Assembly: GCF_019059575.1 (NCBI RefSeq)
Contig: NW_024881695.1
Location: 372,001 to 436,000, forward strand
From: Amphibalanus amphitrite
Taxonomy: Eukaryota > Arthropoda > Thecostraca > Balanomorpha > Balanidae
DNA: 64,000 nt
Direction of reading: 5' to 3'
Positions 46,731 to 64,000 of this stretch are shown in pieces. The notes under the pieces are model-generated. The model made no database searches. It saw only the letters and a program-made list of their open reading frames with translations, and had not been told where the DNA came from. The position numbers and the translations under genes are program-made. The first letter of the stretch is position 1, and each line of letters opens with the position of its first letter.

Positions 46731-48937
46731 CTAACTGAATAATTTTCAATAAGGTTTCTTAAATAACCACCATCAAACATTTGTGATTTTTTCATTAGCT
46801 CTGCACCGGTGGCAGTCGCGGGGTGCAGGTAGGCCAGGACATTGGCCCCATTCTTTACCAGAGAAGTCTGTAATGGGTGAAAAAAACGAATATTAGCATT
46901 ATTATTATCATAAGGCATACCAATCTGGAAAATGATTAAATTAAAGTTGAATAAAGTGATAGATTCCTGCCACAAGCTAGCTTAAGTCCCAAACAATATA
47001 GCTATTCTGACTTGGATAGACGATACCGGCGCACTTCTGCCAACGACGGGCAAACATTATGCGATACTATACATCTTCTAGCTCAACAACATAACTTTTG
47101 TTTACAAATGGACAACCTTTTTGTTGAGCACACAGCAAATGATACAAGATGCCTCACCTTCAATCAAGCCAAAGAGCAGTTGGGCAGACACACACAGTAA
47201 TGGCGACGCAACACAAAATGGACGCCGGCTCCCGGAAGCGGGGGGGGGGGGGGGGACTCCTTCTGAAAGCAGCCACAGACTCCTAGGTTGTAACATGCGA
47301 CGAGGATAGCTATGAGGCACATCCTCATAGCCATCCAAAGCCGCTGACCACGCAAGCTTGCCAGCACGTTTACCAGCTGCAGGCGTTCGTGACAACAAGC
47401 GGGGTTGCACGCAAGGTTATCCGTTTAGTAGGTGCCAGCCGGGGCCTCGTCAGCTGAGCTAATAGCGAAATGACCTAATTGAGGGACACGCTAAAAACTG
47501 GCCGAGAACAAGCCAACGGCGGGTAACACTGTGAGGCTGTGCGTAGTTCATTAACACTGCGCAAAATTAGGTTCCTGAACATGTTCTCGCTCGTAGGCAT
47601 TTGTTCCACAAGCGGCATTGTTAACGTGCATGGCTCTGACTACTAATGTCCATATATGTTGTAACGAGGAGCAAGGGAGGCACTCGTAAAAAATGCCTTA
47701 TTTCAAAATTAGCTAGTGAATATTTTTTTACAGTGTACATCAACAACCAAGTAACATGAGTATTGAGTATGTACATAGAGCACACAGAAGATGGAAGGCG
47801 ATATGATAGTTGCTATTTAACCTGTACCACAATGCATATTGCACATTTGACGTCAGAACAAGTCCCTGGCTGACAGCAAGTAGCCAATACATCTTCCATC
47901 TCGCCAACCATGTCCGTTTTCACACTACGGAAGCCTTCCCACGTGTGCAATTACTTTCCGACGCGCGCGAGATCCTCCAAATCCCATAATGCCATCAACG
48001 GCCACACCGGTCTGGCTTCAACAGATGAGGCCAGCCAGAACCGGCACCTGAATATATGAGGTGCGAACCAAGCCGGCAGGTCTGCCCGGGAGCTGGCGCA
48101 AATCCTACCCACCGACCGGCGTCCTGCAGAGGGTTTGGACACCGCTCGAACCTAGCCGGCGCGGCTGCAGACCGCAGCCCCCCCCCCCTACAGCAGCTGC
48201 GGCAGCCCCCCCCCCGTCCCAGAGCTGTCGCAGCTGTTCACTGGAGCGGCAGGGCGTTAATTGGCAGCGCCGGCGCCGTCTCTGATGGCACTAATTCTCC
48301 GGTCGGCAAACGCCCGGCACGGCTCATAGCCGAATTACGCTCCGACCCAACACCCGGCTGCGTGTAATTTAAATACGGCCCCCGGGGATCCTGAGCGGGC
48401 GCAGTTTCCGCCCTCGGAGCCGCGCAGAATTCTGATCAGACCGGCCGGTAATGTCAGTCGGAGACCCGGATGGGGTCAACGAGCCAGCTAGGGGTCACAT
48501 CCGCTCAGTCAGGCGGAGACCCAGCCGGACTTACAGACTTGGCGTCCAGGGAAATTAAGAACATGTGCCCACTGAGCTGAGCTTATTGGCTGAACGTAAA
48601 TGGATCAATCTACGACTAATGACAGAGAACTGAAGAGAATTTCACTGGAATATATCAGCTTACTCACAATAAATTCAACATGGCATGTTCGCCCAAATTA
48701 CCCACACTTTCCCATCCCCCCCCTCTCTCTCTCTCTCTCTCTCAATCCTCTCTCCTCTCTCCCCACCCACCTCGAAGGGCACATCGCCGTGGTGTTTGTT
48801 GACGATGCGGAACCCGCAGACGGCAGCGCCCACAGCTCGGATGGGCGGCGATACGTCCACCAGGCGCTGGTCCTCCCGCACCAGGCCGTGGTAGCCGTCC
48901 GAGGGTGACACCAGGTCCAGCCGTGGCCGGGACGACC
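5786..48937 (-). CDS. CLSTN: Calsyntenin, gene span in this window (15 exons, 5' end missing)
   Basis: Fifteen exons (listed separately) join in phase with consensus GT/AG sites to give about 2771 nt, roughly 923 residues; vertebrate calsyntenins are near 950-980. Domain order is cadherin repeat 1, cadherin repeat 2, laminin-G/LNS domain, membrane-proximal ectodomain, transmembrane helix, acidic cytoplasmic tail. Signature segments include YDCG, IGKGCDR, MNRHHYALF, a CWQGG join, NSREFPTAGRR and WDDSALNITVNPME. Calsyntenins are type I neuronal membrane proteins that bind kinesin light chain and act in synapse organisation and vesicle transport. The signal-peptide exon is not visible and probably lies beyond 64 kb. 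The exon chain was built by reading splice sites and family similarity, not from transcripts. Confidence 0.93.
5939..7090 (-). other. Calsyntenin intron (penultimate to terminal exon)
   Basis: It contains GC-rich sequence near the terminal exon, an AT-rich centre around 6600-6800, and a CT-rich stretch (6890-7090). The CT-rich stretch includes two extra copies of the upstream exon's end. No other gene is seen. Confidence 0.7.
6958..7120 (-). repeat. Three tandem copies of an exon end plus donor
   Basis: The sequence ctcctccatgg..ttgac.gtgatgttgagc starts at 6958, 7029 and 7091. The 7091 copy is the real end of the transmembrane exon (NITVNPMEE). Steps are 71 and 62 bp and the spacers are CT-rich. 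The middle copy keeps a GT donor (gtgagag); the outer copy has GC (gcgagag). Confidence 0.85.
7091..7263 (-). CDS. CLSTN: Calsyntenin exon: transmembrane helix and first W-acidic motif
   Basis: The acceptor is ccgcgcag|GC (phase 1), preceded by a C run at 7279-7290. The donor is GAGGAG|gtgaga (phase 0). It encodes HAVTIIIVVCIGFLVSMIVL, then GVIRIRAAHRR and EMAWDDSALNITVNPMEE. The membrane helix, the RIRAAHRR stop-transfer and the WDDSAL-ITVNPME kinesin-light-chain-binding motif are diagnostic. Two partial copies of this exon's end lie just downstream. Confidence 0.97.
7264..8517 (-). other. Calsyntenin intron carrying a TTAA-flanked MITE
   Basis: The intron is mostly occupied by the repeat element at 7547-8429. 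The remainder, 7291-7540, is AT-rich with no recognised feature. Confidence 0.7.
7547..8429 (+). mobile_element. piggyBac-like MITE, family 1, copy A
   Basis: The ends are inverted (CCCTCGCCCGTAT at left, ATACAGGCGAGGG at right) and flanked by TTAA on both sides (7543-7546, 8430-8433). TTAA duplication plus CCC termini is the piggyBac hallmark. There is no open frame of transposase size. Both subterminal regions carry G/C homopolymer hairpins, and the interior is rich in GGTCA/TGACC motifs. A second copy lies inverted at 26858-27732. Confidence 0.8.
8518..8863 (-). CDS. CLSTN: Calsyntenin exon: juxtamembrane ectodomain with Ala/Pro linker
   Basis: The acceptor is tcccggcag|GCG (phase 0) and the donor is GGAGCCA|gtgagt (phase 1). 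It encodes ALRFVQYTNRKPAYYLNRAF, KLLCS and RFISNEYVQTLTVIHP. A low-complexity linker with a run of about eight alanines, rich in Pro and Glu, follows. The 'RKPAYYLNR-FKL-CS' and 'R-SNE' blocks are calsyntenin signatures. The Ala-rich linker comes from a (GGC)n tract and may be species-specific. Confidence 0.95.
8864..11296 (-). other. Calsyntenin intron with a family-2 MITE
   Basis: The central 1.2 kb is the element at 9716-10908. Elsewhere there are poly(C) runs (near 9292), AT-rich DNA, and CT-rich sequence at 11070-11280 next to the donor of the exon at 11297. Confidence 0.7.
9716..10908. mobile_element. piggyBac-like MITE, family 2
   Basis: Inverted ends CCCGCGCGGGGCTGG (left) and CCAGCCCCGCGCGGG (right) abut TTAA at 9712-9715 (one extra A) and 10909-10912. 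Inside are (GGTCA)n blocks at 9897-9920, 10061-10103 and 10222-10260, followed by a long AT-rich stretch. No transposase frame is present. The left end carries a second partial copy of the terminal repeat at about 9752. Confidence 0.7.
11297..11478 (-). CDS. CLSTN: Calsyntenin exon: LDKCAVTVYPPLNPEHE segment
   Basis: The acceptor follows a 16-base C run and reads gcctcag|CC (phase 1). The donor is CAAGAG|gtgggt (phase 0). It encodes VGHKLDKCAVTVYPPLNPEH, then EELTLNQRLLDSF, LNKDGLVVYGPG and SYQE. This matches the LD-C...P-L--E-E---L region of calsyntenins ahead of the membrane. Confidence 0.9.
11479..13330 (-). other. Calsyntenin intron
   Basis: It begins with the 16-base G run at 11486-11501 (polypyrimidine tract on the coding strand). 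A GC-rich block lies at 12470-12640. No repeat family or gene was recognised. Confidence 0.65.
13331..13521 (-). CDS. CLSTN: Calsyntenin exon: membrane-proximal ectodomain
   Basis: The acceptor is tccctcag|C (phase 2) and the donor is GAACG|gtaaat (phase 1). It encodes CTNGKMVKIPVVDSYVIVRQ, then LHIAVNGTDNFS and VSVFPDIRVL. The NGTD-F and V-FPDI segments match the calsyntenin region that follows the INSRQFPT block. NGT is a possible N-glycosylation site. Confidence 0.92.
13522..14701 (-). other. Calsyntenin intron
   Basis: The sequence is mixed and mostly AT-rich. I see no gene, repeat or motif beyond the splice sites. Confidence 0.6.
14702..14834 (-). CDS. CLSTN: Calsyntenin exon: NSREFPTAGRR segment
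   Basis: The acceptor is ttcaacag|AC (phase 1) and the donor is CTGGT|gtaagt (phase 2). It encodes MTEVTVEGSNRTHIQSLFRK, IAYVNSREFPTAGRRG and LKVITNLV. The 'YINSRQFPT-G-R' block is a calsyntenin hallmark. TGACC motifs fill the 45 bp upstream of the acceptor. Confidence 0.95.
14835..16492 (-). other. Calsyntenin intron with a 300-bp tandem triplication
   Basis: GGTCA motifs occupy 14845-14890 beside the acceptor at 14834, followed by the triplication at 14892-15800. The rest (15800-16490) is unremarkable. Confidence 0.65.
14892..15800. repeat. Three tandem copies of a 301-311 bp unit
   Basis: The unit starts cctacaaatgtattc and contains catcatatgatcgaact, a region of ccacc/cgcccg, and a (CA)n tract. 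Copies start near 14897, 15196 and 15507; steps measured on an internal marker are 301 and 311 bp. Copies 2 and 3 are nearly identical, and copy 1 differs at scattered sites and lacks about 10 bp. Short open frames of 81-96 codons recur because the unit recurs. I do not regard them as genes. Confidence 0.88.
16493..16666 (-). CDS. CLSTN: Calsyntenin exon: end of LNS and following domain
   Basis: The acceptor is gtcgtcag|GC (phase 1) and the donor is AACAACG|gtacgc (phase 1). It encodes SRMKHIFNGYMAGLSVLRG, then EVLSCLHSCSESLQ and a GMELLANN segment. This matches the 'F-G-LAGL...V--CL-AC-E-L' pattern after the CWQG join of calsyntenins. Confidence 0.93.
16667..18121 (-). other. Calsyntenin intron with a family-3 MITE and exon-end copies
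   Basis: Most of the intron is the element at 16787-17831. The part nearest the upstream exon (17970-18121) consists of 68-bp repeats of that exon's end. Confidence 0.7.
16787..17831. mobile_element. piggyBac-like MITE, family 3
   Basis: TTAA at 16783-16786 and 17832-17835 flanks inverted ends CCCGCGCCC.GCTGGGG and CCCCAGC.GGGCGCGGG. A G run follows the left end, and a G/C homopolymer hairpin (17761-17791) lies near the right end. GGTCA/TGACC motifs recur throughout. No transposase frame is present. Confidence 0.75.
17970..18162 (-). repeat. 68-bp tandem repeat of an exon end plus splice donor
   Basis: The junction ctcaccctgcc (donor gtgag and exon end) occurs at equivalent positions 17986, 18054 and 18122, two exact 68-bp steps. 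The 18122 copy is the true end of the LNS exon (LAVGGCWQG). The extra copies keep the donor and about 40 bp of exon sequence but have no acceptor. 68 is not a multiple of 3, so they do not extend the frame. Confidence 0.92.
18122..18299 (-). CDS. CLSTN: Calsyntenin exon: LNS domain, C-terminal part
   Basis: The acceptor is ctccaacag|GTG TGT (phase 0) and the donor is GGCAGG|gtgagt (phase 1). It encodes VCDDEWHHYSLSMQYPDLTL, TVDGRPVSVEP and LAVGGCWQ. The exon's 3' end plus donor is repeated twice more downstream in 68-bp steps. A GGTCA-repeat tract lies directly upstream of the acceptor. Confidence 0.95.
18300..20144 (-). other. Calsyntenin intron
   Basis: It holds a (GGGGTCA)n tract at 18311-18345, a short inverted-repeat element at 18436-18667, and a perfect CRE (TGACGTCA, 19066-19073). 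Otherwise it is unannotated mixed sequence. Confidence 0.65.
18436..18667. mobile_element. 232-bp MITE with ~37-bp inverted ends
   Basis: GTACAGGTCTCGCG and, after a few mismatches, AGCGGTAGGTTTTGCAC at the left reappear in reverse complement at 18620-18667. There is no coding capacity. The target duplication is unclear, since the GTAC-rich flanks blur the boundary, so the superfamily is not assigned. Confidence 0.7.
20145..20272 (-). CDS. CLSTN: Calsyntenin exon: LNS domain, MNRHHYALF segment
   Basis: The acceptor is ctgtttcag|GG (phase 1) and the donor is CCGCAG|gtcagt (phase 0). It encodes MNRHHYALFIRNCHLIMLLR, then FSPAEWRWQIPQ. The MNRHHYAL and PAEW/F-W segments are near-diagnostic for calsyntenins. 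The exon is too short to stand out as a long open frame. Confidence 0.96.
20273..23758 (-). other. Calsyntenin intron
   Basis: It contains a GC-rich block at 21110-21430 and the 190-bp (GA)n tract at 22640-22865. Sequence between these is mixed; no gene was recognised. Confidence 0.65.
22640..22865. repeat. (GA)n/(GGGA)n purine microsatellite
   Basis: About 220 bp of almost pure purine on the + strand, with (GA) runs broken by GGG and GGAA. It reads as a CT tract in the calsyntenin pre-mRNA. The long frames through it are low-complexity artefacts. Confidence 0.95.
23759..23915 (-). CDS. CLSTN: Calsyntenin exon: LNS (laminin-G-like) domain
   Basis: The acceptor is ttccccag|TTT (phase 0) and the donor is GATCACA|gtaagt (phase 1). 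It encodes FDGTSTAVVVPPSV, then FTISVWLRHADHPG and EHVLCNADDH. The FTIS-W-RH strand and LC-x-DD turn are typical of the calsyntenin LNS domain. Confidence 0.95.
23916..24272 (-). other. Short calsyntenin intron
   Basis: 357 bp with consensus ends and a C run near 24238-24250. Nothing else is seen. Confidence 0.75.
24273..24571 (-). CDS. CLSTN: Calsyntenin exon: cadherin-LNS linker and start of LNS domain
   Basis: The acceptor is preceded by a 14-base C run and ends ccggcag|AT (phase 1). The donor is TTC CAG|gtgggc (phase 0). It encodes EHVEYAPNSGAVALFP, SHIGKGCDRDTFS, RRLCGA and DLLPSP, then GHESDEVFQ. These are among the best conserved calsyntenin segments. Confidence 0.96.
24572..28466 (-). 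other. Calsyntenin intron with inverted copy of the family-1 MITE
   Basis: Features are a G run at 25377-25394, a GC-rich block at 25600-25900, a G run near 26812-26830 and the MITE at 26858-27732. No gene was recognised in the rest. Confidence 0.65.
26858..27732 (-). mobile_element. piggyBac-like MITE, family 1, copy B (inverted)
   Basis: This is the reverse complement of 7547-8429 over its full length, with scattered differences and small indels. It is flanked by TTAA at 26854-26857 and TTAG at 27733-27736 (one decayed target base). The homopolymer hairpins are shorter than in copy A. It is non-coding. Confidence 0.85.
28467..28613 (-). CDS. CLSTN: Calsyntenin exon: cadherin repeat 2 end
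   Basis: The acceptor is gtttacag|GC (phase 1) and the donor is TGG AAA G|gtgaga (phase 1). It encodes TIRNTEPLSYEKSHNH, then IVAYDCGMKMSDKVTVTIKV and VCHLGWK. The AYDCG and C-x-x-GW features mark the end of cadherin repeat 2 and the link to the LNS region in calsyntenins. Confidence 0.95.
28614..32582 (-). other. Calsyntenin intron
   Basis: It holds a 13-bp-stem hairpin at 29128-29155 and a CpG-rich block at about 30690-31090 rich in ccggccg. The rest is mixed or AT-rich without recognised features. Confidence 0.6.
29128..29155. repeat. Perfect short hairpin, 13-bp stem
   Basis: GCAGACCACCTCT, a 2-nt TT loop, then AGAGGTGGTCTGC. Partial echoes (cagaggtgg at 29165, gaccacctttc at 29238) suggest remnants of an inverted-repeat element. 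Confidence 0.8.
32583..32791 (-). CDS. CLSTN: Calsyntenin exon: inter-cadherin linker and repeat 2 start
   Basis: The acceptor is atccggcag|T (phase 2) and the donor is AGCCAGG|gtgagt (phase 1). It encodes VTVHIEVEDVNEFAPRF, whose DVNEFAP is the calcium-binding linker motif between cadherin repeats. This is followed by YILDVDEGRLYDEIVQV and AEDDDCSP, matching the second calsyntenin cadherin domain. Confidence 0.95.
33763..33929. repeat. Minisatellite, three ~56-bp units
   Basis: The unit runs ccaactcggcacaactatcc, then acccctg.ccccatg, tagctgacaatgg and tcaccatc. Three copies differ by one or two bases and a 2-bp indel (gtgtag versus gtag). Confidence 0.9.
33982..34365. mobile_element. hAT-type MITE with perfect 8-bp target duplication
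   Basis: The 384-bp element has inverted ends TAGAGGTGGCAAAA and TTTTGCCACCTCTA. It is flanked by identical ATTTAGAT at 33974-33981 and 34366-34373. An 8-bp duplication and a TAGAGGTGGCAAA-type end fit hAT elements. The interior carries repeated ggacc.g motifs and subterminal inversions (ggacccgtatgggtcc). It has no coding capacity. Confidence 0.9.
36706..36760. repeat. Perfect inverted repeat, 20-bp arms
   Basis: catagataacatgaatctat (36706-36725) is repeated in reverse complement at 36741-36760 around a 15-nt loop that itself echoes the arm (acatgaatcg). It could be a MITE core or cruciform site. No flanking duplication was found. Confidence 0.9.
39830..41740. mobile_element. 1.9-kb element with inverted ends CCCAGCCAGCAATT
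   Basis: CCCAGCCAGCAATT (39830-39843) and AATTGCTGGCTGGG (41727-41740) are perfect inverted termini. Both subterminal zones are rich in gggct/agccc motifs (cgggctaaagtcgg at left, cagcccaag at right). No transposase frame was recognised and the target duplication is unclear. It is probably a non-autonomous DNA transposon. Confidence 0.7.
41801..43495. mobile_element. 1.7-kb foldback element with long inverted ends
   Basis: GGGGCATTCCACGATAGATC at 41801 and its exact reverse complement ending at 43495 are flanked by AACT (41797-41800, 43496-43499). Similarity between the arms continues imperfectly for roughly 450 bp (for example the gaaggtgttctttctataa / ttatagaaagaacacctttc pair). The centre (42540-43025) is GC-richer. 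It resembles the homopolymer/gaggcgaaacgg segment of the family-1 MITEs, suggesting nesting or a shared ancestry. Confidence 0.82.
45531..45664 (-). CDS. CLSTN: Calsyntenin exon: cadherin repeat 1, second part
   Basis: The acceptor is tgacctcag|GTG GTG (phase 0) and the donor is GACAA|gtgagt (phase 2). It encodes VVSTDASTGEAVIQARRPLS followed by CEKRKSYRFEIAAVGCD, the typical cadherin strand pattern with the cysteine pair of calsyntenins. The acceptor sits directly against a tract of GGTCA repeats (TGACC on this strand). Confidence 0.92.
45666..45772. repeat. (GGTCA)n tract abutting a splice acceptor
   Basis: About a dozen GGTCA pentamers, many as AGGTC direct repeats, run from the acceptor of the exon at 45664 into the intron. 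On the gene strand they read TGACC. Confidence 0.9.
46501..46560. repeat. Near-perfect 60-bp palindrome
   Basis: It runs from gtcggggcactgg to ccagtgcccccgac, with an interior of tandem gtcgacggaattcc units. The SalI- and EcoRI-like hexamers come from the palindromic unit. One base breaks the outer symmetry. Confidence 0.88.
46671..46732. repeat. (AAC)n microsatellite
   Basis: About 20 uninterrupted AAC units inside the 46146-47735 element. The poly-Thr and poly-Val frames over it are artefacts. Confidence 0.95.
48771..48937 (-). CDS. CLSTN: Calsyntenin exon: cadherin repeat 1, first part
   Basis: The acceptor is cttccacag|GG (phase 1) and the donor is TTC GAG|gtgggt (phase 0). It encodes SDGYHGLVREDQRLVDVSPP and, after a short gap, CGFRIVNKHHGDVPFE. 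These match the 'YHG-V-EN...PP...ICGF-I...VPF' pattern at the start of calsyntenin cadherin repeat 1. The phase-1 start requires an upstream exon with the signal peptide, which is absent from the window. A (CT)n tract at 48723-48744 lies 25 bp past the donor. Confidence 0.9.
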
Positions 48938-50166
48938 CTGTGGAAGATGAGGGAGAAGGGGAGTTAGAGGGGTGTGTCGGGCGAAGTGGGTGGTAAAGTG
49001 AGAGTAAACCTTCCATTTCTTGCAGTACACGTGAGATCGGGATCGCTGAAACCTTTGTGGACGCCATTTACACCCATAGAAGCGTTTATATCATTTAGTC
49101 ATAGTTTCCACGTGACGAAATCAATCAGCTCTCAAGACGTGCATCACACTTAAATTACAAAGGAAAAGTTACTCGAATAGCACCATGTCTACCTATTCTT
49201 CCATCAACCTTACATCTCTAACAACACACAACCCTTTCAAAATGACATCGCCCGTGTCGCAGCAGTCCAAGTCTGTCCAACATCCAGCAGCGACGACCCG
49301 CGGCCTATCTCCGTCTGAAGCGGCGCAGCTCAATCCATCACGGAGCAATCACTGTCGCCGTGGACAGGAGGCCAGCCGACGAAAAACGCGCCGAGATCGC
49401 AGCAGCGGCGCCACGGTCGTCGCCGCTGCGCCACAGACGCCGCCCGCGCCCGTCAACAGGTGGCGATGTGGCGGAGCGCCGGCGAGACACCATTGTGGCG
49501 AGAAGAAAGGCGCCGGGGAAGAATGATAGTGTGGCGGAGGCGAGTGAGAAAGATTACCTGCAGAGCACGGTGTTTGGGGTGTTGGAAAACAAGCTATTTG
49601 GCTAAAAAGACGACGATGTTTAGAGCAGAAGCGAGACTTCGTACAAGCCGATGCCTTCTAGTTTGAATAGTTTGAAATAAAGCATATAAGTATGCTGTGT
49701 GTAAATGTAATTACCAGCATTCCGTCCATATGAAGCGTAAATGCATCCACAAGGTCACGCCGCCTTGGATCGCCCAAAGGTCTGCCGCAGTGACCCCGCC
49801 GCAGTGACCCCGCCCCCGCCTCAGTGACCCGCCCGCGCCGCCGCTGGGACAGATCGTGTGTACCGACGGGCGCCGGTCTGCAATCATGGGCCCAGTTTCA
49901 CCAAGCTCTGTTTGGGGTAGTTTCGGCGAAACTACCCCAAACCAGTTTCACCAAATGGGGTAGGTTCTGATTGGCCACTTCCAAACTACCCCATGGGGCA
50001 GTTCTTATTTTACCCCAAATTTGCCATGCAAACAGATGCTCACGGTCCGTGAGCATCTGAACAAGCCAATCAATCAGCTGTTTGCCGGCAATTCTACCCC
50101 AAATATCCGACCAAAATTACGGCTGACATTCGTGGGGTATGTCCATAAAGTTAGCGTCGTATTCGT
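48938..50166. other. Sequence upstream of the first visible calsyntenin exon (intron, proposed)
   Basis: A GC-rich block lies at 49320-49520 and another at 49780-49870 (repeated cagtgacccc). A palindrome-rich segment lies at 49889-50110. No signal-peptide exon was found here on the minus strand. Confidence 0.5.
49889..50110. repeat. Palindrome-rich segment (MITE-like)
   Basis: Hairpins occur at 49911-49941 (TTTGGGGTAGTTTC... with its reverse complement) and 50033-50059 (CAGATGCTCACGG, 1-nt loop). Cagtttcacc is repeated at about 49892 and 49943, and tttggggta variants recur. This looks like a foldback relic; the ends were not defined. Confidence 0.6.
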
Positions 50167-53100
50167 ATTCGGATTCAAATTCGAGTAATGATTTCGCTCA
50201 AAATTGGCATACAGATAGCCCATGGCACGCTGAGTTCGAAAATGGTGACCTTTTTTTCCTAGGTCAAACCGTTTGACCTTGAGAGGTCAAAATACCGCGT
50301 ACCCTGCAGAATCTTTGTTTATGGTCCGATTTGAAAAAATTCGACCACCAGTGTGTTGGTCTCATCCAGAAGCAGTAGCACATTCGAAAAAATCCGAGGT
50401 CAAGGTCATAGGTCAAGGTCAAGGTCACTTTAAAAATCGCCGTACCCTACAAAATCTTCATTTTTGGAGCTATCGGAAAATTTCGGCCACCACTGTGTTC
50501 GTCTCATCGAGAAGCAGTAGCACATTCAAAGAAATCCGAGGTCAAGGTCATAGGTCAAGGTCAAGGTCACTTTAAACGTTAATTTTAGTCCCCGTACCCT
50601 GTAGAATCTTTGTTTATGGTCCGATTTAAAAATTTCGGCCACCACTGTGTTCGTCTCATCGAGAAGCAGTAGCACATTTGAAAAAATCCGAGGTCAAGGT
50701 CATAGGTCAAGGTCAAGGTCACTTTAAACGTTAATTTTAGTCCCCGTACCCTGTAGAATCTTTGTTTATGGTCCGACTTGAAAATTTCGGCCACCACTGT
50801 GTTCGTCTCATCGAGAAGCAGTAGCACCTTTGAAAAAATCCGAGGTCAAGGTCATAGGTCAAGGTCAAGGTCACTTTAAACGTTAATTTTAGTCCCCGTA
50901 CCCTGTAGAATCTTTGTTTATAGTCCGATTTAAAAATTTCGGCCACCACTGTGTTCATCTCATCGAGAAGCAGTAGCACATTCGAAAAAATCCGAGGTCA
51001 AGGTCATAGGTCAAGGTCAAGGTCACTTTAAACGTTAATTTTAGTCCCCGTACCCTGTAGAATCTTTGTTTATCGTCCGATCTGAAAATTTCGGCCACCA
51101 CTGTGTTCGTCTCATCGAGAAGCAGTAGCACATTTGAAAAAATCCGACGTCAAGGTCATAGGTCAAGGTCAAGGTCACTTTAAACGTTAATTTTAGTCCC
51201 CGTACCCTGTAGAATCTTTGTTTATGGTCCGATTTGAAAATTTCGGCCACCACTGTGTTCGTCTCATCGAGAAACAGTAGGACATTTGAAAAAATCCGAG
51301 GTCAAGGTCATAGGTCAAGGTCAAGGTCACTTTAAACGTTAATTTTAGTCCCCGTACCCTGTAGAATCTTTGTTTATCGTCCGATCTGAAAATTTCGGCC
51401 ACCACTGTGTTCGTCTCGACGAGAAGCAGTAGCACATTCGAAAAAATCCGAGGTGAAGGTCATAGGTCAAGGTCAAGGTCACTTTAAACGTTAATTTTAG
51501 TCCCCGTACCCTGTAGAATCTTTGTTTATGGTCCGATTTGAAAATTTCGGCCACCACTGTGTTCGTCTCATCGAGAAGCAGTAGCACATTTGAAAAAATC
51601 CGAGGTCAAGGTCATAGGTCAAGGTCAAGGTCACTTTAAACGTTAATTTTAGTCCCCGTACCCTGTAGAATCTTTTTTTATGGTCCGATTTAAAAATTTC
51701 GGCCACCACTGTGTTCGCCTCATCGAGAAGCAGTAGCACATTCGAAAAAATCCGAAGTCAAGGTCATAGGTCAAGGTCAAGGTCACTTTAAACGTTAATT
51801 TTAGTCCCCGTACCCTGTAGAATCTTTGTTTATCGTCCGATCTGAAAATTTCGGCCACCACTGTGTTCGTCTCATCGAGAAGCAGTAGCACATTTGAAAA
51901 AATCCGAGGTCAAAGTCATAGGTCAAGGTCAAGGTCACTTTAAACGTTAATTTTAGTCCCCGTACCCTGTAGAATCTTTGTTTATGGTCCGATTTAAACA
52001 TTTCGGCCACCACTGTGTTCGTCTCATCGAGAAGCAGTAGCACATTTGAAAAAATCCGAGGTCAAGGTCATAGGTCAAGGTCAAGGTCACTTTAAACGCT
52101 CATTTTAGTCCCCGTACCCTGTAGAATCTTTGTTTATCGTCCGATCTGAAAAATTCGGCCACCACTGTGTTCGTCTCATCGAGAAGCAGTAGCACATTTG
52201 AAAAAATCCGAGGTCAAGGTCATAGGTCAAGGTGAAGGTCACTTTAAACGTTAATTTTAGTCCCCGTACCCTGTAGAATCTTTGTTTATGGTCCGATTTA
52301 AAAATTTCGGCCACCACTGTGTTCGTCTCATCGAGAAGCAGTAGCACATTTGAAAAAATCCGAGGTCAAGGTCATAGGTCAAGGTCAAGGTCACTTTAAA
52401 CGTTAATTTTAGTCCCCGTACCCTGTAGAATCTTTGTTTATCGTCCGATCTGAAAATTTCGGCCACCACTGTGTTTGTCTCATCAAGAAGCAGTAGCACA
52501 TTTGAAAAACCCGAGGTCAAGGTCATAGGTCAAGGTCAAGGTCACTTTAAACGTTAATTTTAGTCCCCGTACCCTGTAGAATCTTTGTTTATGGTCCGAT
52601 TTAAAAATTTCGGCCACCATTGTGTTCGTCTCATCGAGAAGCAGTAGCACATTTGAAAAAATCCGAGGTCAAGGTCATAGGTCAAGGTCAAGGTCACTTT
52701 AAACGTTAATTTTAGTCCCCGTACCCTGTAGAATCTTTGTTTATCGTCCGATCTGAAAATTTCGGCCACCACTGTGTTAGTCTCATCGAGAAGCAGTAGC
52801 ACATTCGAAAAAATCCGAGGTCAAGGTCATAGGTCAAGGTCAAGGTCACTTTAAACGTTAATTTTAGTCCCCGTACCCTGTAGAATCTTTGTTTATGGTC
52901 CGATTTGAAAATTTCGGCCACCACTGTGTTCGTCTCATCGAGAAGCAGTAGCACATTTGAAAAAATCCGAGGTCAAGGTCATAGGTCAAGGTCAAGGTCA
53001 CTTTAAACGTTAATTTTAGTCCCCGTACCCTGTAGAATCTTTGTTTATCGTCCGATCTGAAAATTTCGGCCACCACTGTGTTAGTCTCATCGAGAAGCAG

Positions 53101-56100
53101 TAGCACATTCGAAAAAATCCGAGGTCAAGGTCATAGGTCAAGGTCAAGGTCACTTTAAACGTTAATTTTAGTCCCCGTACCCTGTAGAATCTTTGTTTAT
53201 GGTCCGATTTGAAAATTTCGGCCACCACTGTGTTCGTCTCATCGAGAAGCAGTAGCACATTTGAAAAAATCCGAGGTCAAGGTCATAGGTCAAGGTCAAG
53301 GTCACTTTAAACGTTAATTTTAGTCCCCGTACCCTGTAGAATCTTTGTTTATCGTCCGATCTGAAAATTTCGGCCACCACTGTGTTCGTCTCATCGAGAA
53401 GCAGTAGCACATTCGAAAAAATCCGAGGTCAAGGTCATAGGTCAAGGTCAAGGTCACTTTAAACGTTAATTTTAGTCCCCGTACCCTGTAGAATCTTTGT
53501 TTATGGTCCGATTTGAAAATTTCGGCCACCACTGTGTTCGTCTCATCAAGAAGCAGTAGCACATTCGAAAAAATCCGAGGTCAAGGTCATAGGTCAAGGT
53601 CAAGGTCACTTTAAACGTTAATTTTAGTCCCCATACCCTGTAGAATCTTTGTTTATGGTCCGATTTGAAAGTTTCGGCCACCACTGTGTTCGTCTCATCG
53701 AGAAGCAGTAGCACATTCGAAAAAATCCGAGGTCAAGGTCATAGGTCAAGGTCAAGGTCACTTTAAACGTTAATTTTAGTCCCCGTACCCTGTAGAATCT
53801 TTGTTTATGGTCCGATTTGAAAATTTCGGCCACCACTGTGTTCGTCTCATCGAGAAGCAGTAGCACATTTGAAAAAATCCGAGGTCAAGGTCATAGGTCA
53901 AGGTCAAGGTCACTTTAAACGTTAATTTTAGTCCCCGTACCCTGTAGAATCTTTGTTTATGGTCCGATTTAAAAATTTCGTCCACCACTGTGTTCGTCTC
54001 ATCGAGAAGCAGTAGCACATTCGAAAAAATCCGAGGTCAAGGTCATAGGTCAAGGTCACTTTAAACGTTAATTTTAGTCCCCGTACCCTGTAGAATCTTT
54101 GTTTATGGTCCGATTTGAAAATTTCGGCCACCACTGTGTTCATCTCATCGAGAAGCAGTAGCACATTTGAAAAAATCCGAGGTCAAGGTCATAGGTCAAG
54201 GTCAAGGTTACTTTAAACGTTAAAATTCGGATTCAAATTCGAGTAATGATTTCGCTCAAAATTGGCATGCAGATAGCCCATGGCACGCTGAGTTCGAAAA
54301 TGGTCACCTTTTTTTCCTAGGTCAAACCGTTTGACCTTGAGAGGTCAAAATACTGCGTACCCTGTAGAATCTTTGTTTATGGTCCGATTTGAAAAATTCG
54401 ACCACCAGTGTGTTGGTCTCATCCAGAAGCAGTAGCACTTTCAAAAAAATCCGAGGTCAAGGTCATAGGTCAAGGTCAAGGTCACTTTAAAAATCGCCGT
54501 ACCCTATAAAATCTTCATTTTTGGAGCTATCGGAAAATTTCGGCCACCACTGTGTTCGTCTCATCGAGAAGCAGTAGCACATTCGAAAAAATCCGAGGTC
54601 AAGGTCATAGGTCAAGGTCAAGGTCACTTTAAACGTTAAAATTCGGATTCAAATTCGAGTAATGATTTCGCTCAAAATTGGCACACAGATAGCCCATGGC
54701 ACGCTGAGTTCGAAAATGGTCACCTTTTTTTCCTAGGTCAAACCGTTTGACCTTGAGAGGTCAAAATACTGCGTACCCTGTAGAATCTTTGTTTATGGTC
54801 CGATTTGAAAAATTCGACCACCAGTGTGTTGGTCTCATCCAGAAGCAGTAGCACTCTAAAAAAATCCGAGGTCAAGGTCATAGGTCAAGGTCATAGGTCA
54901 AGGTCAAGGTCACTTTAAAAATCGCCGTACCCTATAAAATCTTCATTTTTGGAGCTATCGGAAAATTTCGGCCACCACTGTGTTTGTCTCATCGAGAAGC
55001 AGTAGCACATTCGAAGAAATCCGAGGTCAAGGTCATAGGTAAAGGTCAAAGTCACTTTAAACGTTAATTTTAGTCCCCGTACCCTGTAGAATCTTTGTTT
55101 ATGGTCCGATTTAAAAATTTCGGCCACCACTGTGTTCGTCTCATCGAGAAGCAGTAGCACATTTGAAAAAATCCGAGGTCAAGGTCATAGGTCAAGGTCA
55201 AGGTCACTTTAAACGTTAATTTTAGTCCCCGTACCCTGTAGAATCTTTGTTTATGGTCCGATTTGAAAATTTCGGCCACCACTGTGTTCGTCTCATCGAG
55301 AAGCAGTAGCACATTCGAAAAAATCCGAGGTCAAGGTCATAGGTCAAGGTCAAGGTCACTTTAAACGTTAATTTTAGTCCCCGTACCCTGTAGAATCTTT
55401 GTTTATGGTCCGATTTAAAAATTTCGGCCACCACTGTGTTCGTCTCATCGAGAAGCAGTAGCACATTGGAAAAAATCCGAGGTCAAGGTCATAGGTCAAG
55501 GTCAAGGTCACTTTAAACGTTAATTTTAGTCCCCGTACCCTGTAGAATCTTTGTTTATCGTCCGATCTGAAAATTTCGGCCACCACTGTGTTCACCTCAT
55601 CGAGAAGCAGTAGAACATTTGAAAAAATCCGAAGTCAAGGTCATAGGTCAAGGTCAAGGTCACTTTAAACGTTAGTTTTAGTCCCCGTACCCTGTAGAAT
55701 CTTTGTTTATGGTCCGATTTGAAAATTTCGGCCACCACTGTGTTCGTCTTATCAAGAAGCAGTAGCACATTCGAAAAAATCCGAGGTCAAGGTCATAGGT
55801 CAAGGTCAAGGTCACTTTAAACGTTAATTTTAGCCCCGTACCCTGTAGAATCTTTGTTTATCGTCCGATCTGAAAATTTCGGCCACCACTGTGTTTGTCT
55901 CATCGAGAAGCAGTAGCACATTCGAAAAAATCCGAGGTCAAGGTCATAGGTCAAGGTCAAGGTCACTTTAAACGTTAATTTTAGTCCCCGTACCCTGTAG
56001 AATCTTTGTTTATGGTCCGATTTAAAAATTTCGGCCACCACTGTGTTCGTCTCATCGAGAAGCAGTAGCACATTTGAAGAAATCCGAGGTCAAGGTCATA

Positions 56101-56600
56101 GGTCAAGGTCAAGGTCACTTTAAACGTTAATTTTAGTCCCCGTACCCTGTAGAATCTTTGTTTATGGTCCGATTTGAAAATTTCGGCCACCACTGTGTTC
56201 GTCTCATCGAGAAGCAGTAGCACATTTGAAAAAATCCGAGGTCAAGGTCATAGGTCAAGGTCAAGGTCACTTTAAACGTTAATTTTAGTCCCCGTACCCT
56301 GTAGAATCTTTGTTTATGGTCCGATTTAAAAATTTCGGACACCACTGTGTTCGTCTCATCGAGAAGCAGTAGCACATTCGAAAAAATCCGAGGTCAAGGT
56401 CATAGGTCAAGGTCAAGGTCACTTTAAACGTTAATTTTAGTCCCCGTACCCTGTAGAATCTTTGTTTATCGTCCGATCTGAAAATTTCGGCCACCACTGT
56501 GTTCGTCTCATCGAGACGCAGTAGCACATTTGAAAAAATCCGAGGTCAAGGTCATAGGTCAAGGTCAAGGTCACTTTAAACGTTAATTTTAGTCCCCGTA
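50167..56600 (-). repeat. 152-bp tandem array, left arm
   Basis: About 40 units, nearly all exactly 152 bp apart. Each has gtaccctgtagaatctttg, gtccgat, a gccaccactgtgttcgtctc segment, agcagtagcac and a cluster of AGGTCA half-sites (for example 50691-50721: five half-sites spaced 0, 1, 0 and 0). Distinct head modules (attcggattcaaattcg ... gtcaaaccgtttgacc) occur at 50167, 54225 and 54641. In part of the arm two unit types alternate, giving a 304-bp period. Strand is nominal: the 80-codon frame of the unit is on the minus strand here. Confidence 0.97.
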
Positions 56601-59600
56601 CCTATGACCTTGACCTTGACCTTGGATTTTTTCAAATGTGCTACTGCTTCTCGATGAGACGAACACAGTGGTGGCCGAAATTTTCAAATCTGACCATAAA
56701 CAAAGATTCTACAGGGTACGGGGACTAAAATTAACGTTTAAAGTGACCTTGACCTTGACCTATGACCTTGACCTCGGATGTTTTCAAATGTGCTACTGCT
56801 TCTCGATGAGACGAACACAGTGGTGGCCGAAATTTTCAAATCGGACCATAAACAAAGATTCTACAGGGTACGGGGACTAAAATTAACGTTTAAAGTGACC
56901 TTGACCTTGACCTATGACCTTGACCTCGGATTTTTTTCGAATGTGCTACTGCTTCTCGATGAGACAAACACAGTGGTGGCCGAAATTTTCAAATCGGACC
57001 ATAAGCAAATATTCTACAGGGTACGGGGACTAAAATTAACGTTTAAAGTGATCTTGACCTTGACCTATGACCTTGACCTCGGATTTTTCGAATGTGCTAC
57101 TGCTTCTCGATGAGACGAACACAGTGGTGGCCGAAATTTTCAAATCAGACCATAAACAAAGATTCTACAGGGTATGGGGACTAAAATTAACGTTTAAAGT
57201 GACCTTGACCTTGACCTATGACCTCGACCTCGGATTTTTTCAAATGTGCTACTGCTTCTCGATGAGACGAACACAGTGGTGGCCGAAATTTTCAAATCGG
57301 ACCATAAACAAAGATTCTACAGGGTACGGGGACTAAAATTAACGTTTAAAGTGAACTTGACCTTGACCTATGACCTTGACCTCGGATTTTTTCAAATGTG
57401 CTACTGCTTCTCGATGCGACGAACACAGTGGTGGCCGAAATTTTCAAATCGGACCATAAACAAAGATTCTACAGGGTACGGGGACTAAAATTAACGTTTA
57501 AAGTGACCTTTACCTTGACCTATGACCTTGACCTCGGATTTTTTCGAATGTGCTACTGCTTCTCGATGAGACGAACACAGTGGTGGCCGAAATTTTCAGA
57601 TCGGACGATAAACAAAGATTCTACAGGGTATGGGGACTAAAATTAACGTTTAAAGTGACCTTGACCTTGACCTATGACCTTGACCTCGGATTTTTTCAAA
57701 TGTGCTACTGCTTCTCGATGAGACCAACACAGTGGTGGCCGAAATTTTCAAATCGGACCATAAACAAAGATTCTACAGGGTACGGGGACTAAAATTAACG
57801 TTTAAAGTGACCTTGACCTTGACCTATGACCTTGACCTCGGATTTTTTCGAATGTGCTACTGCTTCTCGATGAGACGAACACAGTGGTGGCCGCAATTTT
57901 CAGATCGGACGATAAACAAAGATTCTACAGGGTACGGGGACTAAAATTAACGTTTAAAGTGACCTTGACCTTGACCTATGACCTTGACCTCGGATTTTTT
58001 TTGAATGTGCTACTGCTTCTCGATGAGACGAACACAGTGGTGGCCGAAATTTTCAAATCGGACCATAAACAAAGATTCTACAGGGTACGGGGACTAAAAT
58101 TAACGTTTAAAGTGACCTTGACCTTGACCTATGACCTTGATCTCGGATTTTTCGAATGTGCTACTGCTTCTCGATGAGACGAACACAGTGCTGGCCGAAA
58201 TTTTCAAATCAGACCATAAACAAAGATTCTACAGGGTACGGGGACTAAAATTAACGTTTAAAGTGACCTTGACCTTAACGTATGACCTTGACCTCGGATT
58301 TTTTCAAATGTGCTACTGCTTCTCGATGAGACAAACACAGTGGTGGCCGAAATTTTCAAATCGGACCATAAACAAAGATTCTACAGGGTACGGGGACTAA
58401 AATTAACGTTTAAAGTGAACTTGACCTTGACCTATGACCTTGACCTCGGATTTTTTCGAATGTGCTACTGCTTCTCGATGCGACAAACACAGTGGTGGCC
58501 GAAATTTTCAAATCGGACCATAAACGAAGATTCTACAGGGTACGGGGACTAAAATTAACGTTTAAAGTGACCTTGACCTTGACCTATGACCTTGACCTCG
58601 GATTTTTTCGAATGTGCTACTGCTTCTAGATGAGACGAACACAGTGATGGCCGAAATTTTCCGATAGCTCCAAAAATGAAGATTTTATAGGGTACGGGGA
58701 CTAAAATTAACGTTTAAAGTGACCTTGACCTTGACCTATGACCTTGACCTCGGATTTTTTCGAATGTGCTACTGCTTCTCGATGAGACGAACACAGTGGT
58801 GGCCGAAATTTCCAAATCGGACCATAAACAAAGATTCTACAGGGTACGGGGACTAAAGTTAACGTTTAAAGTGACCTTGACCTTGACCTATGACATTGAC
58901 CTCGGATAGTTTTCGAATGTGCTACTGCTTCTTGATGAGACGAACACAGTGGGTGCCGAAATTTTCAAATCTGACCATAAACAAAGATTCTACAGGGTAC
59001 GGGGACTAAAATTAACGTTTAAAGTGACCTTTACCTTGACCTATGACCTTGACCTCGGATTTTTTCCAATGTGCTACTGCTTCTTGATGAGACGAACACA
59101 GTGGTGGCCGAAATTTTCAAATCGGACCATAAACAAAGATTCTACAGGGTACGGGGACTAAAATTAACGTTTAAAGTGACCTTAACCTTGACCTATGACC
59201 TAGACCTCGGATTTTTTCAAATGTGCTACTGCTTCTCGATGAGACGAACACAGTGGTGGCCGAAATTTTCAAATCGGACCATAAACAAAGATTCTACAGG
59301 GTACGGGGACTAAAATTAACGTTTAAAGTGACCTTGACCTTGACCTATGGCATTGAACTCGGATTTTTTCGAATGTGCTACTGCTTCTCGATGAGACGAA
59401 CACAGTGGTGGCCGAAATTTTCAAATCTGACCATAAACAAAGATTCTACAGGGTACGGGGACTAAAATTAACGTTTAAAGTGACCTTGACCTTGACCTAT
59501 GACCTTGACCTCGGATGTTTTCAAATGTGCTACTGCTTCTCGATGAGACGAACACAGTGGTGGCCGAAATTTTCAAATCGGACCATAAACAAAGATTCTA

Positions 59601-62600
59601 CAGGGTACGGGGACTAAAATTAACGTTTAAAGTGACCTTGACCTTGACCTATGACCTTGACCTCGGATTTTTTTCGAATGTGCTACTGCTTCTCGATGAG
59701 ACAAACACAGTGGTGGCCGAAATTTTCAAATCGGACCATAAGCAAATATTCTACAGGGTACGGGGACTAAAATTAACGTTTAAAGTGATCTTGACCTTGA
59801 CCTATGACCTTGACCTCGGATTTTTCGAATGTGCTACTGCTTCTCGATGAGACGAACACAGTGGTGGCCGAAATTTTCAAATCAGACCATAAACAAAGAT
59901 TCTACAGGGTATGGGGACTAAAATTAACGTTTAAAGTGACCTTGACCTTGACCTATGACCTCGACCTCGGATTTTTTCAAATGTGCTACTGCTTCTCGAT
60001 GAGACGAACACAGTGGTGGCCGAAATTTTCAAATCGGACCATAAACAAAGATTCTACAGGGTACGGGGACTAAAATTAACGTTTAAAGTGAACTTGACCT
60101 TGACCTATGACCTTGACCTCGGATTTTTTCAAATGTGCTACTGCTTCTCGATGCGACGAACACAGTGGTGGCCGAAATTTTCAAATCGGACCATAAACAA
60201 AGATTCTACAGGGTACGGGGACTAAAATTAACGTTTAAAGTGACCTTTACCTTGACCTATGACCTTGACCTCGGATTTTTTCGAATGTGCTACTGCTTCT
60301 CGATGAGACGAACACAGTGGTGGCCGAAATTTTCAGATCGGACGATAAACAAAGATTCTACAGGGTATGGGGACTAAAATTAACGTTTAAAGTGACCTTG
60401 ACCTTGACCTATGACCTTGACCTCGGATTTTTTCAAATGTGCTACTGCTTCTCGATGAGACCAACACAGTGGTGGCCGAAATTTTCAAATCGGACCATAA
60501 ACAAAGATTCTACAGGGTACGGGGACTAAAATTAACGTTTAAAGTGACCTTGACCTTGACCTATGACCTTGACCTCGGATTTTTTCGAATGTGCTACTGC
60601 TTCTCGATAAGACGAACACAGTGGTGGCCGCAATTTTCAGATCGGACGATAAACAAAGATTCTACAGGGTACGGGGACTAAAATTAACGTTTAAAGTGAC
60701 CTTGACCTTGACCTATGACCTTGACCTCGGATTTTTTTTGAATGTGCTACTGCTTCTCGATGAGACGAACACAGTGGTGGCCGAAATTTTCAAATCGGAC
60801 CATAAACAAAGATTCTACAGGGTACGGGGACTAAAATTAACGTTTAAAGTGACCTTGACCTTGACCTATGACCTTGATCTCGGATTTTTCGAATGTGCTA
60901 CTGCTTCTCGATGAGACGAACACAGTGCTGGCCGAAATTTTCAAATCAGACCATAAACAAAGATTCTACAGGGTACGGGGACTAAAATTAACGTTTAAAG
61001 TGACCTTGACCTTAACGTATGACCTTGACCTCGGATTTTTTCAAATGTGCTACTGCTTCTCGATGAGACAAACACAGTGGTGGCCGAAATTTTCAAATCG
61101 GACCATAAACAAAGATTCTACAGGGTACGGGGACTAAAATTAACGTTTAAAGTGAACTTGACCTTGACCTATGACCTTGACCTCGGATTTTTTCAAATGT
61201 GCTACTGCTTCTCGATGCGACAAACACAGTGGTGGCCGAAATTTTCAAATCGGACCATAAACGAAGATTCTACAGGGTACGGGGACTAAAATTAACGTTT
61301 AAAGTGACCTTGACCTTGACCTATGACCTTGACCTCGGATTTTTTCGAATGTGCTACTGCTTCTAGATGAGACGAACACAGTGATGGCCGAAATTTTCCG
61401 ATAGCTCCAAAAATGAAGATTTTATAGGGTACGGGGACTAAAATTAACGTTTAAAGTGACCTTGACCTTGACCTATGACCTTGACCTCGGATTTTTTCGA
61501 ATGTGCTACTGCTTCTCGATGAGACGAACACAGTGGTGGCCGAAATTTCCAAATCGGACCATAAACAAAGATTCTACAGGGTACGGGGACTAAAGTTAAC
61601 GTTTAAAGTGACCTTGACCTTGACCTATGACATTGACCTCGGATAGTTTTCGAATGTGCTACTGCTTCTTGATGAGACGAACACAGTGGGTGCCGAAATT
61701 TTCAAATCTGACCATAAACAAAGATTCTACAGGGTACGGGGACTAAAATTAACGTTTAAAGTGACCTTTACCTTGACCTATGACCTTGACCTCGGATTTT
61801 TTCCAATGTGCTACTGCTTCTTGATGAGACGAACACAGTGGTGGCCGAAATTTTCAAATCGGACCATAAACAAAGATTCTACAGGGTACGGGGACTAAAA
61901 TTAACGTTTAAAGTGACCTTGACCTTGACCTATGACCTTGACCTTGGATTTTTTCAAATGTGCTACTGCTTCTCGATGAGACGAACACAGTGGTGGCCGA
62001 AATTTTCAAATCGGACCATAAACAAAGATTCTACAGGGTACGGGGACTAAAATTAACGTTTAAAGTGACCTTGACCTTGACCTATGACCTTGACCTCGGA
62101 TTTTTTCAAATGTGCTACTGCTTCTCGATGAGACGAACACAGTGGTGGCCGAAATTTTCAAATCGGACCATAAACAAAGATTCTACAGGGTACGGGGACT
62201 AAAATTAACGTTTAAAGTGACCTTGACCTTGACCTATGACCTTGACCTCGGATTTTTTCAAATGTGCTACTGCTTCTAGATGAGACGAACACAGTGATGG
62301 CCGAAATTTTCCGATAGCTCCAAAAATGAAGATTTTATAGGGTACGGGGACTAAAATTAACGTTTAAAGTGACCTTGACCTTGACCTATGACCTTGACCT
62401 CGGATTTTTTCGAATGTGCTACTGCTTCTCGATGAGACGAACACAGTGGTGGCCGAAATTTTCAAATCGGACCATAAACAAAGATTCTACAGGGTACGGG
62501 GACTAAAATAAACGTTTAAAGTGACTTTGACCTTGACTTATGACCTTGACCTCGGATTTTTTCAAATGTGCTACTGCTTCTTGATGAGACGAACACAGTG

Positions 62601-64000
62601 GTGGCCGAAATTTTCAAATCGGACCATAAACAAAGATTCTACAGGGTACGGGGACTAAAATTAATGTTTAAAGTGACCTTGACCTTGACCTATGACCTTG
62701 ACCTCGGATTTTTCGAATGTGCTACTGCTTCTCGATGAGACGAACACAGTGGTGGCCGAAATTTTCAAATCGGACCATAAACAAAGATTCTACAGGGTAC
62801 GGGGTCTAAAATTAACGTTTAAAGTGACCTTGACCTTGACCTATGACCTTGACCTCGGATTTTTTCAAATATGCTACTGCTTCTCGATGAGACGAACACA
62901 GTGGTGGCCGAAATTTTCAAATCGGACCATAAACAAAGATTCTACAGGGTGCGGGGACTAAAATTAACGTTTAAAGTGACCTTGACCTTGACCTATGACC
63001 TTGACCTTGGATTTTTTCAAATGTGCTACTGCTTCTCGATGAGACGAACACAGTGGTGGCCGAAATTTTCAAATCGGACCATAAACAAAGATTCTACAGG
63101 GTACGGGGACTAAAATTAACGTTTAAAGTGACCTTGACCTTGACCTATGACCTTGACCTCGGATTTTTTCGAATATGCTACTGCTTCTCGATGAGACGAA
63201 CACAGTGGTGGCCGAAATTTTTAAATCGGACCATAAACAAAGATTCTACAGGGTACGGGTCTAAAATTAACGTTTAAAGTGATTTTGACCTTGACCTATG
63301 ACCTTGACCTCGGATTTTTTCAAATGTGCTACTGCTTCTTGATGAGACGAACACAGTGGTGGCCGAAATTTTCAAATCGGACCATAAACAAAGATTCTAC
63401 AGGGTACGGGGACTAAAATTAACGTTTAAAGTGACCTTGACCTTGACCTATGACCTTGACGTCGGATTTTTTCAAATGTGCTACTGCTTCTCGATGAGAC
63501 GAACACAGTGGTGGCCGAAATTTTTAAATCGGACCATAAACAAAGATTCTACAGGGTACGGGGACTAAAATTAACGTTTAAAGTGACCTTGACCTTGACC
63601 TATGACCTTGACCTTGGATTTTTTCAAATGTGCTACTGCTTCTCGATGAGACGAACACAGTGGTGGCCGAAATTTTCAAATCGAACCATAAACAAAGATT
63701 CTACAGGGTACGGGGACTAAAATAAACGTTTAAAGTGACCTTGACCTTGACCTATGACCTTGACCTTGGATTTTGTCGAATGTGCTACTGCATGTCGATG
63801 AGACGAACACAGTGGTGGCCGAAATTTTTAAATCGGACCATAAACAAAGATTCTACAGGGTACGGGGACTAAAATTAACGTTTAAAGTGACCTTGACCTT
63901 TACCTATGACCTTGACCTCGGATTTTTTTCAAATGTGCTACTGCTTCTCGATGAGACGAACACAGTGGTGGCCGAAATTTTCAGATCGGACGATAAACAA
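56601..64000 (+). repeat. 152-bp tandem array, right arm (inverted, runs off the window)
   Basis: The same unit in the opposite orientation, about 48 copies to the window end. The switch occurs at 56599-56603 within sequence gtacctatgacc. A 2737-bp block (18 units plus 1 bp) starting near 56640 is repeated almost exactly from about 59377, including private variants. Units with a gatagctccaaaaatgaag variant recur near 58660, 61397 and 62310. Confidence 0.97.

Follow-up and report, generated by a model that had tools for sequence, protein, structure and literature searches.

A 152-bp half-site array in Amphibalanus amphitrite as the probable inverted arms of a foldback transposon

We analysed a 64,000-nucleotide stretch of the Amphibalanus amphitrite genome (contig NW_024881695.1, C198:372001-436000; hereafter the window), which ends in a long tandem array of units of about 152 bp carrying clustered AGGTCA half-sites, and searched the genome for related copies (807.55 Mb in 2,644 contigs). 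The array probably represents the paired inverted arms of one non-autonomous foldback DNA transposon, because it has fixed ends and heads and inverted arms, and because its copies are dispersed, are flanked by target duplications and differ in their centres. The sequence-only reading of this DNA had suggested a satellite that titrates or recruits nuclear receptors. As transposon arms, the array would be neither a plain satellite nor a dedicated receptor sink.

Most of the earlier description of the array stood. There are, as claimed, close to ninety units (89, from 50299 to the window end), and the 31-bp block of five half-sites, AGGTCAAGGTCATAGGTCAAGGTCAAGGTCA, is indeed present at 50691-50721. 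Each unit holds this block or a variant of it; exact copies number 31 on the plus strand of the window and 24 on the minus strand. The several hundred potential sites are also there: AGGTCA occurs 198 times on the plus and 220 times on the minus strand of 50167-64000, and the array part of the window contains 235 copies of the extended site TCAAGGTCA. Tandem Repeats Finder recovered the same arrays. The statement that the block is rarely altered was loose; single half-sites are intact in 78 to 85 of the 89 units and the whole block in 55, counts that include the junction unit, which is misaligned in that comparison. The sequence-only reading overlooked that unit orientation flips once, at 56602/56603, with 40 units on the plus strand from 50299 and 49 on the minus strand up to 64000. 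It also took 50167-50300 for array, and these 134 bases are an element head containing two AGGTCA and two TGACCT. The array extends beyond the window to an element end at 64926. The whole copy therefore spans 50139-64926 (14,788 bp, 40 plus and 54 minus units), with the following parts in the window.

50139..50166, plus strand: left terminal 28 bp, ATGTCCATAAAGTTAGCGTCGTATTCGT, identical at all 15 ends displayed from eight copies
50167..50300, plus strand: 134-bp head, the flanking domain of the terminal inverted repeat, found at 15 of 15 ends examined in eight copies
50299..50440, plus strand: first unit, divergent type 1 (142 bp)
50441..50592, plus strand: second unit, divergent type 2
50593..54223, plus strand: regular 152-bp left-arm units with a partly alternating dimer pattern
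50691..50721, plus strand: example of the five-half-site block, unit positions 99-129
54224..54357, plus strand: internal head copy, followed by type 1 and type 2 units
54640..54773, plus strand: second internal head copy
56560..56640, no strand: inverted junction at about 56602/56603, with a 3-bp overlap (ACC) read by eye
56603..64000, minus strand: right arm, 49 units in the window and 54 in the whole copy, the element ending at 64926

Genome searches placed the unit on many contigs, on several of which a plus array is followed by a minus array. Eight copies were fetched whole or nearly so, and all eight have long terminal inverted repeats built of tandem repeats, in the order 28-bp end, 134-bp head, plus-units, centre, minus-units, head and end; the C539 copy, which lacks its left end at the contig start, has a 760-bp middle. 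Arm size ranges from 9 to 69 units. The centre is different in each of the eight copies, the window junction included. The first two units are divergent types that match between the arms in six of the seven two-ended copies (not in C13). Fifteen internal heads in the eight copies share one start junction, a few of them differing by single bases next to it, which points to a single old rearrangement. No long open frame was detected, the longest encoding 111 amino acids in 50139-64000 and 103 amino acids in the C539 middle. Rfam and tRNA scans of the window gave no matches, and there were 0 matches to the 31-bp block in viral contigs and 0 to 22 bp of it in prokaryote contigs. In the C466 copy, about 300 bp rich in GACTCCGACTCC interrupt the left arm (4668-4970 of the fetched piece); this stretch looks like an insertion.

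A pattern made of the first 27 bp of the end (at most two mismatches) has 163 matches in the genome, 75 and 88 by strand, and a reversed-pattern control has none. From the 100 of these 163 ends that were listed, 36 facing pairs were formed by eye; six belonged to copies already described, and flanks were read for the other 30. These 30 further copies are 3,383 to 24,653 bp long (median 7,124); 20 have a perfect 9-bp target duplication and one more has an 8-bp duplication, and none of 870 mismatched flank pairings reached 8 or more matches. The seven earlier copies comprise four with perfect 9-bp duplications, one matching at 7 of 9 positions, and two with none (C198, in the window, and C27). 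In total, 24 of 37 two-ended copies have a perfect 9-bp target-site duplication, corresponding to 23 insertions because C969 and C1281 are allelic. It is highly improbable that an ordinary tandem satellite spread by itself and has transposon-like ends by coincidence: long homogeneous arrays with higher-order repeats would suit such a satellite, but fixed ends, a second arm in inverted orientation and 9-bp duplications across many loci would not. A plain satellite was rejected on the fixed ends and the target duplications.

The arms of the foldback element would very probably grow and shrink by unequal exchange among units. C969 (6,445 bp) and C1281 (5,259 bp) are two alleles of one insertion; apart from one block of about seven units (25 versus 18 in the left arm) and a few single units, they are collinear unit by unit. 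In the window copy, the right arm shows a higher-order repeat of 18 units, with 14 of 31 units identical at that lag, and the left arm a weak dimer pattern. No run of at least three identical units is shared between copies among the eight, whereas the alleles share long runs; for 235 of 372 units, the nearest relative lies in another copy. These patterns fit unequal exchange within arms and an ancestral pool of units common to the copies. The recent spread of one array was rejected on the absence of shared runs between the eight copies. We also rejected mirror-image copying of one arm from the other, as i-th units are not clearly more alike than shuffled ones in any of seven copies; similarity in C198, C761 and C43 is 1 to 1.7 standard deviations above shuffled, and C13 has one 4-unit run common to its two arms.

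Recombination or misjoining inside arrays does happen, as indicated by C1375, which has no target duplication and whose right flank equals the left flank of C1567 at 30 of 30 bases. C1375 is a rearranged allele or a misjoin. The window copy likewise has no duplication and may be another such case; it could then be partly a product of assembly or recombination, with two elements joined inside the array. The missing duplication and the C1375 precedent speak for this, but the allele pair agrees nearly unit by unit, so that arrays are well assembled there; we regard a joined window copy as a real, though lesser, possibility.

A transposase acting in trans probably moves the element, most likely one of the Mutator/Phantom kind that leaves 9-bp duplications. 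Target duplications of mostly 9 bp are a Mutator/Phantom trait, and this length is the one in PMC3169594. MULE transposase domains have 111 matches in the genome. The closest known element by structure is Tetris of Drosophila virilis, and the element described here is a variant of that known foldback type, a likeness of described structure. Tetris is described as non-autonomous, with 8-10 bp target duplications and inverted repeats composed of a flanking domain and internal tandem repeats of about 220 bp; 37 bp are common to both domains, the internal repeats expand to satellite-like arrays, and the middle is variable (PMC4079207). Our element shares with it the lack of autonomy, the flanking domain and tandem repeats within long inverted repeats, the satellite-like arrays and the variable middle, and differs in its 152-bp units, its duplications (9 bp in 24 of 37 copies, 8 bp in one of 37) and the GGTCA block in head and units. 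Tm1, a Mutator/Foldback element of root-knot nematodes, also has composite inverted repeats that vary in length and include tandem repeats, and 45 of its 53 complete elements have duplications of 8-10 bp, mostly 9 bp (PMC3169594). Unlike here, its repeats are 13-15 bp long and it has members encoding a transposase; none was found in our searches.

Transposase docking at the GGTCA clusters is a fair guess by analogy, given the Galileo precedent and the words that head and unit have in common. Galileo, a foldback-like element of the P superfamily, has long inverted repeats with tandem repeats that bind its transposase (THAP sites), and such binding by arm repeats is called untested for Foldback and Phantom elements in the same source (PMC3688188). 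It differs in superfamily and in its demonstrated binding, which for our element would be a prediction. Head and unit have AGGTCAA-type words in common, as the Tetris domains have their 37 bp (PMC4079207). The clusters in head and units would, by a slight preference on our part, be protein-binding sites useful to the element and not a device for soaking up host receptors; their binder could be a docking transposase or a host factor. As a possible lead, TTGACC resembles the W-box, a type of site for WRKY-type domains, which are kin to domains of some MULE transposases.

The sequence-only reading held that the half-site block is more conserved than the rest of the unit. In the window this is not so. 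We aligned all 89 units and compared the 31 block sites with the 121 outside by base-matched permutation. Raw divergence is 2.0% in the block versus 3.6% outside (p = 0.07), part of which is due to divergent subtypes common to several units; without 12 subtype or irregular units, the gap narrows to 1.5% versus 2.0%. Distinct variants per site number 0.87 in the block and 0.84 outside (p = 0.68), and 17 of 31 sites vary in the block versus 72 of 121 outside. Versions of the test omitted the junction unit R49, 12 units or 27 units; with the junction unit removed, variants per site are 0.68 versus 0.75 (0.68 without CpG sites). The block has no special conservation in the window, and strong purifying selection on it there was rejected by the variant counts. 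A pooled test covered 372 regular units from the eight copies, including the window's, after omission of the 116 units, out of 488, that had more than 8 differences. Here, non-CpG variants per site are 1.16 in the block versus 1.53 outside (p = 0.02), with p = 0.04 for variant-by-copy events and p = 0.06 for divergence, values that, like those for the window, treat sites as independent. Ranked against all 31-bp windows by variants, events and divergence, the block falls within the least variable 3, 12 and 8%, and the lowest-variability windows start at 105-107, overlapping the block. The pooled sample thus gives a weak hint of constraint on the block.

The motif is also abundant outside the foldback element. 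In the first 50 kb of the window, AGGTCA ranks second of 2,080 hexamer pairs (108 versus 23 expected). It tops the list of over-represented hexamers (456 versus 53 expected) in a genome sample of 24 pieces of 5 kb (120 kb) picked by round numbers, with 10 or more sites in 13 of the 24 pieces; in the second batch alone (14 pieces) it is second, behind TATATA. Distances between sites in this sample peak near 165, 340 and 515 bp. Pairs at 140-189 bp are 19 times the mean of the 70-119 and 220-269 bp classes, a ratio that is 0 to 2 for nine other hexamers. We searched for runs of three or more clusters in the 24 pieces, in one further fetched piece (L010) and in the window's first 50 kb, with a filter on spacing of 110-220 bp, and found 20 runs with a mean spacing of 164 bp (standard deviation 19, n = 60). 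One run from each of seven groups, with the L027 run (a GC-rich tandem repeat) omitted, gives 165 bp (standard deviation 17, n = 20). Run-like stretches, which belong to abundant repeat families, make up 16.9% of the 120 kb and contain 333 AGGTCA, 33 times the expected number; outside them the motif is at 2.8 times the expected number and ranks 13. Cluster runs in the window lie at 7543-8434, 9709-10914, 16850-17835 and 26854-27735, and microsatellite-like (AGGTC)n tracts at 45673-45760 and 10061-10103.

Related runs form five groups by BLAST, one of which covers several of the families F1, F2, F3, F4 and F6. Each of these families begins TTAA-CCC[T/G]CGC in at least one copy. TTAA adjoins CCCT in F3, F4 and F6 and CCCG in F1 and F2, and a mirrored end was also observed for F1, F2, F3 and F6. 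In TTAA and end features the five families appear piggyBac-like, the published piggyBac-like end motif being CC[C/T]T with a TTAA duplication (PMC2872659). The coral CMITE elements, likewise piggyBac-like, recall the GGTCA elements in their TTAA duplications and in an internal region that is better kept than the ends between families; they differ in their length of about 100 bp, and a term search of the text found neither 'GGTCA' nor 'spacing' (PMC2872659). Among the matches listed in the open-licence literature, judged by titles and the starts of abstracts, none concerned AGGTCA satellites, a 152-bp satellite or GGTCA spacing in transposons.

In the TTAA-type copies whose clusters were mapped, 158-197 bp separate the left TTAA from the centre of the first cluster. 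The grid has gaps: the right 670 bp of F1 lack clusters, and an F2 copy has one 371-bp step. Cluster strands are mixed within most runs and uniform or nearly so in F1 and F6. Within a run, the stretches that separate clusters are for the most part unrelated to one another (13 of 81 pairs exceed the best shuffle). We compared ten pairs of related elements, nine from F1 and one from F4. Identity outside clusters is 67-73% in nine pairs and 87% in one, versus 79-93% in cluster columns, and 31 of 31 clusters align to a partner cluster where such clusters cover 16-26% of the partner's length; this comparison overstates constraint, since both members were picked for cluster runs, the pairs are non-independent and the alignment can slide within clusters. 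The earlier intuition that the motif matters thus gains some support from the better-kept clusters of two other families, but not from the window, where the block is not special.

With GGTCA masked, the type 1 unit has 29 bp (25 identical) in common with two F1 copies, in line with a cluster. None of 300 shuffles was as good for either copy, and for the regular unit the counts were 0 and 3 of 300. The signal was weak or absent for the masked head and for masked comparisons with F2 and F3. Because the masked unit matches F1, the foldback unit may derive from such a TTAA element. The clusters could then be passive baggage, copied into the ancestral unit as a piece of a GGTCA-rich TTAA element and kept alike by slippage. 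The 29-bp match and the dominance of pentamer steps favour this, but 31 of 31 clusters fall on a partner cluster despite the low identity outside in nine of ten pairs, and the spacing is regular; on balance, we find passive baggage doubtful.

Alternatively, the arrays might bind nuclear receptors (FTZ-F1/NR5A, ERR, RXR/USP or COUP-type) and act as a sink, a heterochromatin seed or a route to early-embryo expression. The 235 extended sites would suit this, as would clusters that are better kept than their surroundings between diverged subfamilies and the mild constraint hinted at in the pooled units. There are also precedents. TCAGGG variants of telomeres are bound by orphan receptors, which promote H3K9me3 at these sites (PMC13187458), and at the 2-cell stage of the mouse an overlap with SINE B1/Alu is found for 73.6% of NR5A2 peaks (PMC12848575). 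The variant telomere repeats resemble our array as tandem half-site-like repeats that recruit receptors, but belong to human telomeres in ALT (alternative lengthening of telomeres) cells (PMC13187458), whereas the sites here are sequence predictions. Against receptors as binders, the block is not specially conserved in the window, and among 215 close neighbouring AGGTCA pairs (12 bp or less) in the 120-kb sample the commonest arrangement is the overlapping AGGTCAGGTCA (67), followed by the direct repeats (DR) DR4 (30), DR0 (17) and DR1 (12). Overlapping AGGTCAGGTCA is not a standard receptor dimer spacing. We consider this receptor role of the arrays rather unlikely.

The clusters of several kinds of element may be read as element-borne binding sites for a transposase, a nuclear receptor or another factor. 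Clusters at nucleosome-length intervals (about 164 bp in TTAA-type elements and 142-155 bp in the foldback arm) are carried by at least two transposition types, the 9-bp foldback and the TTAA-type, and they hold their position as the intervening DNA turns over. Clusters in both types would be explained by a host factor, and nuclear receptors are candidates. Tentatively, a host DNA-binding protein, possibly a nucleosome-binding nuclear receptor, might occupy linkers or nucleosome edges and set the chromatin state, with unrelated elements having converged on or shared one code. If true, this state would be open for mobility or expression, or silenced.

Several observations weigh against the interpretation of the array as a foldback element moved by a transposase that docks at its clusters. 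Thirteen of the 37 two-ended copies, the window copy among them, have no perfect 9-bp duplication (one has the 8-bp duplication). No autonomous copy was found, and when the listed MULE matches were compared by eye with the 100 of 163 ends listed, none lay within 70 kb of an end. GGTCA clusters occur in TTAA-type elements as well, which weighs against one transposase as their common cause, and slippage within clusters could alone keep them alike.

The window also contains a calsyntenin gene with long introns on the minus strand (7094-48893). A tblastn search with a human protein as query places its exons in order between 7.1 and 45.7 kb; there is a cadherin-like exon near 32.6-32.8 kb, and Pfam shows C-terminal pieces, over the cut-off in one scan and just under it in another. 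A weak tblastn match at 48,726-48,893 (E = 0.01) may be exon 2, which would place the foldback element within intron 1 or upstream; no exon 1 was found. The exon at 18.1-18.3 kb is in part repeated within a 68-bp tandem repeat (17968-18157). An integrin alpha exon is located at about 0.7-0.9 kb on the plus strand. A 311-bp tandem repeat (2.9 copies, 95% matches) occupies 14894-15787, and the sequence at 49890-50130, immediately beside the foldback end, contains a palindrome of GTTTGGGGTAGTTTCG with 16-bp arms and may be another repeat.

The element is a clear animal case of a foldback element with satellite-like arms. Its many insertions with intact duplications, its alleles differing by a block and the unlikeness of its non-allelic arrays are material for studying the origin of satellites from transposons. 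The GGTCA spacing, if genome-wide, would tie transposon structure to nucleosome spacing and to a host DNA-binding protein. The receptor-type motif would then be mostly transposon-borne in this genome, a reason for caution in taking AGGTCA as a regulatory site.

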